A stretch of 64,000 bases of DNA from Tomocerus qinae (taxonomy: Eukaryota; Arthropoda; Collembola; Entomobryomorpha; Tomoceridae). The notes below the pieces were generated by a model. It saw nothing but the letters and a program-made list of their open reading frames with translations. It ran no database searches and had not been told where the DNA came from. A program made the translations under genes and the position numbers. Positions within the stretch are counted from its first letter, which is position 1. Every line of letters starts with the position of its first letter. The DNA lies in contig CM034547.1 in the NCBI GenBank assembly GCA_020055645.1, positions 9,719,280 to 9,783,279 on the forward strand. The letters run 5' to 3'. Of the stretch, positions 54,291 through 56,245 are shown piece after piece.

Positions 54291-55050
54291 GTATTGTGCT
54301 CTTGACCAAACGTCGGTTGTACAGATAGGTATGGGTGCTATCCTGTATGTACAAAATTTGTTTCCATAGGGTTAGATTTGTCGCCCGTCCGGTGTGTGTT
54401 AAATTGGGTTTTAACCTGTGACAGCTATGTCACGCCTTACTGCCCTGTACGAAAGTCATTTTGGATATGAGAGCTAGGCTGTTTCCAGTTTCGGGGCAGG
54501 AATGTGAAAAATATATAAAATTGGGCAATGGTTATTTTCAGTCTACACTCTGTACATGTTCAAACAAATTACCTTTTTATTAACCTTAATTGTAATTATC
54601 AATTATTGAAACGTAACTCATTACAAATTAATGATAAAAACATGAAGCTACGGACGATGGATAGTTGTTATTAGAAGAAATCAATGAAATATTTACATTT
54701 TACGTATTTAAATGAGAATACAGATATAGCACTGCACTTTGAAATAGTTGTGGAGGTCATTGTTGCGTCTCATTGGATGTTGTAGCCAGTAAGTCCAGGA
54801 AATAAATAGCAAAGACCGGGGACGAAAGCGGTGAGAAGGCCGAGTTAAATTGCAATAAGGTACCCACATATTTAGAGTTGATCCACATATTACGTAATCA
54901 AAAATTTATCGTTTTTAGAAACACCTTTTCCCTCTGTCATCGAATGTCAACATTTAATTAGTTAATTTGAATTGAAAATGTTTATTTTTATTTTTTGGTT
55001 TATTTATTACCCGATTCTATTTAGTACTTATTTAAATGAGAATATTGCAC
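54291..55050 (+). repeat. Left arm of the long inverted repeat
   Basis: 760 bp. It carries an internal direct repeat: TATTTAAATGAGAATA followed closely by GCACTG occurs at about 54705-54735 and again, slightly altered, at the inner end (55028-55052). Confidence 0.88.
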
Positions 55051-55087
55051 TGTACTATCTGTAATATAATAAGATATAGTACAGTGC
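55047..55087. repeat. Perfect 12-bp stem hairpin at the inner end of the left arm
   Basis: GCACTGTACTAT and its reverse complement ATAGTACAGTGC are separated by 17 bases. The hairpin begins inside the arm and ends in the loop; the right arm does not carry it. Confidence 0.75.
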
Positions 55088-55120
55088 CATATATCGGTAT
55101 ATACATGCGATGTCAGTCAG

Positions 55121-55327
55121 CCAGAAAAGGATTATAAAAATCGGCAGCAAAAGATCGCAGAAAAGCAGCGTAAAATATTACAGGCACAGATACAAGCTGA
55201 TAAGGAGAAAGAAATGGAAGAGGTTGAGCGACAGGCTGCAAAGTTGAGAGAGGCAGAAGAGCATCTTAGAGCTAGACGAAATAGAATGACTCTATGCCTA
55301 GAAACTTTTGGTTGTCCATTATGTTAA
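55121..55327 (+). pseudogene. Exon-like coiled-coil reading frame in the loop
   Basis: 68 codons run open to a TAA. The frame contains no Met before residue 32, but it lies just after GATGTCAGTCAG, a usable splice acceptor, so it looks like a terminal exon without its upstream part. The chain is strongly charged and heptad-like (KIAEKQRKILQAQIQADKEK, then EEVERQAAKLREAEEHL) and ends LETFGCPLC. Codon use is clearly coding-like and unlike the AT-rich surroundings. It may be a fragment of a host coiled-coil gene captured by the inverted-repeat element, or the last exon of a gene encoded by it. The parent gene is not in this window and I do not recognise it. Confidence 0.45.
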
Positions 55328-55486
55328 CTAAGTCTGTAAGCTTAAATTATAAAACATAACTGTAAGAAACTATGAGGTTAATTGCCCTAATTATAATTAT
55401 TATCGTAATTCACATTATCATTCATCTGATATGCGATAGTGGAACAGTAACTCTCACTTAGCTTATTACACATTAAGTACATAGTA

Positions 55487-56245
55487 GTGCAATATTCTCA
55501 TTTAAATAAGTACTAAATAGAATCGGGTAATAAATAAACCAAAAAATAAAAATAAACATTTTCAATTCAAATTAACTAATTAAATGTTGACATTCGATGA
55601 CAGAGGGAAAAGGTGTTTCTAAAAACGATAAATTTTTGATTACGTAATATGTGGATCAACTCTAAATATGTGGGTACCTTATTGCAATTTAACTCGGCCT
55701 TCTCACCGCTTTCGTCCCCGGTCTTTGCTATTTATTTCCTGGACTTACTGGCTACAACATCCAATGAGACGCAACAATGACCTCCACAACTATTTCAAAG
55801 TGCAGTGCTATATCTGTATTCTCATTTAAATACGTAAAATGTAAATATTTCATTGATTTCTTCTAATAACAACTATCCATCGTCCGTAGCTTCATGTTTT
55901 TATCATTAATTTGTAATGAGTTACGTTTCAATAATTGATAATTACAATTAAGGTTAATAAAAAGGTAATTTGTTTGAACATGTACAGAGTGTAGACTGAA
56001 AATAACCATTGCCCAATTTTATATATTTTTCACATTCCTGCCCCGAAACTGGAAACAGCCTAGCTCTCATATCCAAATGACTTTCGTACGGGGCAGTAAG
56101 GCGTGACATAGCTGTCACAGGTTAAAACCCAATTTAACACACACCGGACGGGCGACAAATCTAACCCTATGGAAACAAATTTTGTACATACAGGATAGCA
56201 CCCATACCTATCTGTACAACCGACGTTTGGTCAAGAGCACAATAC
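55487..56245 (-). repeat. Right arm of the long inverted repeat
   Basis: 759 bp, the reverse complement of the left arm apart from about one substitution and one single-base length difference. Confidence 0.88.

Follow-up and report, generated by a model that had tools for sequence, protein, structure and literature searches.

Analysis of a 64,000-nucleotide stretch of the Tomocerus qinae genome (contig CM034547.1; hereafter the window) revealed a long inverted repeat whose arms, at 54291-55051 and 55486-56245, are 761 and 760 bp long and are inverted copies of one another, with 759 of 761 alignment columns identical. The two differences, a T/C substitution at 54446 and a 1-bp indel at about 54459, agree with the initial annotation, which had described a near-perfect repeat of about 760 bp with about two differences. 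Of the two ungapped parts of the arms, the longer (592 nt) is 100% identical and the shorter (171 nt) 99%, and 434 nt of spacer lie between the arms. Inverted 20-mers numbered 1430 in the real window (1098 at 100 bp) and 0 in three window shuffles, which excludes a chance origin of the repeat. The outermost G/C pair (54291/56245) reflects chance pairing of the flanks outside the element, and the adjacent TA dinucleotides look like a duplicated target. With the G/C pair and the TA duplication set aside, the element proper spans about 54294-56242, or ~1.95 kb, most of which consists of the two long arms (Table 1). No tandem array was found in the window element by Tandem Repeats Finder.

Table 1. 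Features of the inverted-repeat element (window coordinates) and places of Dicer_dimer matches in the genome (contig:position)
Feature	Position	Strand	Remark
Left TA, putative target-site duplication	54292..54293	.	TA at both tips in 14/16 printed loci
Left arm, long terminal inverted repeat	54294..55051	+	TTGT tip, then the variable cassette of 20 bp; the conserved inner block starts at 54318
20-bp cassette, highly variable among subfamilies	54298..54317	+	Diversity 0.45 vs 0.04-0.05 at arm positions 41-590 (20 arms)
Small inner palindrome	55042..55092	.	55040-55095 folds at about -19 kcal/mol (predicted)
51 bp extending the inverted repeat in longer copies, missing on the right here	55052..55102	+	Spacer 1-51 in both orientations in L012, L014, L015
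Open stretch of 84 codons, stop-terminated; putative protein tail rich in lysine and glutamate	55073..55327	+	
Central region	55103..55485	.	Shorter than in L012 and L015
Right arm, left arm inverted	55486..56242	-	759/761 columns identical
Right TA, putative target-site duplication	56243..56244	.	TA beside tips, joined flanks
Dicer_dimer matches	C4:16795521, C1:137431023, C1:34473008, C1:34275308, C1:137393237, C1:8090785, C1:137016499		

Elsewhere in the window, positions 9336-14140 resemble an LTR retrotransposon, with 787-bp direct repeats carrying 2 differences, a flanking 5-bp repeat (ATTAC) and an interior of 48% GC. The minus strand of this interior holds an open frame of 941 codons (10281-13106), for which a Pfam search gave no match above the cut-off. 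An Rfam search of the window at gathering thresholds returned only a tRNA at 6237.

Copies of the arm were found throughout the genome assembly (334 Mb, 115 contigs; contigs are labeled C1-C9 and loci by L-numbers). The search listed 49 matches, 40 of them strong, including the two arms of the window itself; 40 of 619 first-look candidates were scored, so that at least 38 strong matches lie beyond the window. The search for further copies that the initial annotation had called for thus returned a dispersed family. Among 28 regions fetched around strong matches, 18 carried the arm in both orientations (at least 150 bp each) with differing spacers, and the other ten carried it essentially in a single orientation; two copies on C5, ~25.5 kb apart, had flanks 99.7% identical and were counted as one insertion. 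The copies read on C1, C2, C4, C5 and C7 had distinct flanks, spacers and arm sequences, and tip pairs were also present on C3 and C9. Near-identical inverted arms are a known form of assembly artefact, here a foldback chimera of a single arm, but copies that differ in flanks, spacers and arms on so many contigs make this origin, which the initial annotation had raised, very unlikely, as do the TA dinucleotides at both edges.

Comparison of the flanks, likewise proposed in the initial annotation, revealed that, of the 16 loci printed, 14 have a TA adjoining each of their two tips; in this set, L009 and L010 represent one local duplication and L017 and L021 have no intact right tip. No duplication longer than TA was observed in the 11 loci used for junctions. 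The joined flanks of L034 matched an element-free relative within L015 in 144 of 183 columns, with a single TA at the junction. Those of L009 aligned through the junction, at 80-83% and with small gaps close to it, to further copies of a palindromic repeat; both empty-site comparisons are with diverged paralogues rather than with an allele. Together, the edge TAs and the joined-flank matches support the limits of the element given above and a short, TA target-site duplication, as found for Tc1/mariner elements. The palindromic repeat at the L009 insertion site also matches the centres of the foldbacks L016, L033, L034 and L035, as if palindromes had inserted into palindromes.

The spacer, which had been described as unique, proved to recur in full (434 bp) at two other places in the genome and in part at many more. 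Comparison with the longer copies L012 and L015 suggests that internal sequence has been lost from the right side of the window copy, with 51 bp of the inverted repeat as part of the loss. The longest open stretch in the spacer is 84 codons, leaving the copy without a transposase gene of its own. A 70-residue part of this stretch had seven matches in the genome, all within family copies, and no match above the cut-off in a Pfam search; the stretch may represent the gene end of an ancestral element or a captured exon. Two family loci contained other open frames: those at L020:4881-6932, within an 8.6-kb family tip pair, consist of short repeated units in a minisatellite-like array, and those at L019:1-2375 are long, lie in a 1-kb inverted duplication (97.7%) and may resemble Polinton-type genes, with no Pfam match for the one L019 frame scanned.

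The arms of the window element differ at 0.13% of aligned bases, and within-element divergence did not exceed 1.31% in 11 of the 13 elements compared, the exceptions being L023 (2.2%) and L016 (5.0%). This comparison dropped L010 (a duplicate of L009), L012 and L030 and never took in L013, L015, L017, L024 or the one-armed loci. In only six of the 13 were the two arms of an element closer to each other than to those of any other element; much of the low divergence is therefore attributable to the recent age of the copies, and concerted evolution of the arms was rejected as a general account. L016 looks chimeric, since its arms fall in different clades.

The family is dispersed, its tips converge, TA lies at both edges, the arms are nearly identical and the spacers vary. 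From these computed features we conclude with high confidence that the window repeat is a non-autonomous DNA transposon of the foldback (two-long-TIR) type, recently inserted and belonging to a dispersed family, the alternative that the initial annotation had offered. The family is new but of a familiar type, and the window element has no gene content except perhaps a short C-terminal remnant. Movement would be by cut-and-paste, with a tip-recognizing transposase acting in trans, and internal deletions would arise during repair. Target duplication of a TA dinucleotide (2 bp) is consistent with Tc1/mariner-like chemistry.

A transcript across both arms could instead make the locus a source of hairpin RNA, diced to siRNAs that would act on host or transposon mRNAs. 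In silico folding predicted a single stem with 760 arm-arm pairs at about -1438 kcal/mol, and the genome contained eight Dicer_dimer matches, spread over about seven places and in three cases carrying an internal stop, suggesting several Dicer-type genes or pseudogenes and, with them, the probable presence of dicing machinery. Transposition, however, accounts for the structure without any RNA function, and the 49 listed arm matches resemble family copies or fragments, none being recognized as a host gene target among the matches read in part (40 of 619 candidates scored). We therefore consider a dedicated hairpin-RNA locus very unlikely, while a transposon of this shape may still yield siRNAs incidentally.

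No transposase or autonomous copy could be tied to the family among the copies read, a set that excluded the interiors of the tip pairs at C1:86440275-86446881, C9:282650-289888 and C4:1619211-1626322 and the right half of C2:205592-214222. The DDE_3 domain of Tc1, the sole Tc1/mariner domain searched, had seven matches in the genome, none of which fell within paired tips by eye, the longest pairs being outside this reading. Similarly, comparison of coordinates by eye placed none of 59 MULE-domain matches within paired tips, nor any of the listed matches to the P-type RNase H domain, of which there are at least 157 (150 of 257 candidates scored). P elements make an 8-bp duplication. Membership in the P superfamily, as for Galileo, was rejected given the TA-only duplication and the position of the listed P-domain matches outside paired tips, and membership among the Mutator foldbacks (FB, Tetris) was rejected given the same duplication, in place of one of 8-10 bp, and MULE matches outside paired tips. 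At L021:4576-6200, P-type transposase frames adjoin a family copy.

One locus, L049, showed a more complex arrangement, in which a 5.36-kb family tip pair encloses reading frames for a PIF/Harbinger transposase (DDE_Tnp_4) and a Myb protein (Myb_DNA-bind_5). On this reading, the family would be a foldback of the PIF/Harbinger type, with L049 as its autonomous copy. Within the family arms, however, the Harbinger core is bounded by a separate pair of exact inverted ends, GGAACGATATTCTGAAC. A sister on C5 with the same core (transposase 96% identical) had no arm sequence across the 2.55 kb of flank read. From these two observations, the L049 Harbinger is most likely nested in a family element. 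Simple nesting would have kept the whole of both arms, whereas the left end of L049 matches arm positions 28-665 and the right end only 28-164; with the right arm cut at about position 164, nesting alone is insufficient and a deletion is needed as well. The core occupies L049:2242-5318, and 246 bp from its left side recur as a direct repeat at 1299-1544. In addition, Harbinger elements usually have 3-bp duplications and 25-50-bp TIRs, according to the excerpted account in PMC9179366, compared to 2 bp and about 760 bp here. Even with the truncated arm and the enclosed genes taken into account, an autonomous copy in L049 remains improbable, and PIF/Harbinger membership was rejected given the 2-bp TA, the ~760-bp TIRs and the separate ends of the sole transposase found.

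The present foldback family shares features with several known systems. Tc4 of Caenorhabditis elegans has near-perfect arms of ~770 bp around a short loop and inserts at a TA-type target, and by this general description it resembles the window element in all three respects but differs in its 3-bp TNA duplication. In the excerpted account of Galileo, a Drosophila member of the P superfamily, two-TIR copies have TIRs that average 668 bp, non-autonomous copies consist almost only of TIRs, several subfamilies occur per genome, some copies are chimeric and TIRs have lengthened by recruiting inner sequence (PMC3573991), all of which recall the family described here; Galileo differs in its 7-bp duplications and its known P-type transposase. 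The Drosophila virilis foldback Tetris, as described in part of PMC4079207, is similarly noncoding, with a variable middle domain and a transposase that was not found, but has 8-10-bp duplications and 220-bp tandem repeats inside its TIRs in place of the TA and array-free arms of the window element. By these partial accounts, Galileo two-TIR copies and Tetris appear closest in form, both with longer target duplications.

Analysis of the tips revealed a pattern that is most likely the part of this family to interest specialists. The window tip (33 bp with at most three mismatches) had 23 matches in the genome compared to none for a reversed control, and a related tip type had 81 (control, 3). 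A two-box pattern consisting of TATTGT and TGTACAGATAGGTA with 12-30 bp between them identified 89 ends (control, 0), which formed 29 convergent pairs of less than 10 kb and left 31 ends unpaired under the exact pattern; the distance between the boxes was exactly 20 bp in 85 of the 89. When ends were not selected for the tip box, TATTGT still lay exactly 20 bp ahead of the inner block in 43 of 49, a count that set aside 11 further matches starting later in the inner block and included both L009 and L010. The six misses comprised point changes (L014, L034), a 26-bp spacing (L022) and altered or cut ends (L017, L019, L021).

Across 20 arms, diversity was 0.45 in this 20-bp cassette, 0.05 at positions 41-165 and 0.04 at positions 166-590, and reached 0.16 in the most variable 20-bp window outside the cassette, positions 1-6 and 27-40 being conserved by construction in arms chosen by pattern. 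The cassette is thus about tenfold more diverse than the remainder of the 600-bp end. In one group of tips, only 3-7 of the 20 cassette bases agree with the window copy, against 91-96% identity over the 135 bp that follow, a range that excludes the L030 plus and L036 minus ends (0.50-0.51 in the inner block). The cassette appears to change by degrees rather than in one swap, since the remaining tips are intermediate, sharing 13-17 of 20 bases with the window copy. Three elements, L016, L027 and L031, have unlike cassettes at their two ends.

We tentatively propose, as a possibility that we consider somewhat doubtful, that the tips form a two-box recombination signal in which the terminal TATTGT and inner TGTACAGATAGGTA would be held 20 bp, or about two helical turns, apart, and that the gap is a specificity cassette altered by new subfamilies while all else is kept. 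Such alteration might, for example, track a changing transposase or evade a host repressor. A limited literature search on foldbacks and tips found no title on a fixed-length variable tip.

In sum, the repeat that had been ranked the best candidate for an undescribed system is instead a member of a mobile-element family of known kind, a result that removes this candidate and helps repeat annotation of the genome. If upheld, the fixed-length variable tip would provide a natural series of transposon ends differing mainly in a 20-bp cassette, and such a series, if real, would make the co-evolution of transposase and ends directly testable.
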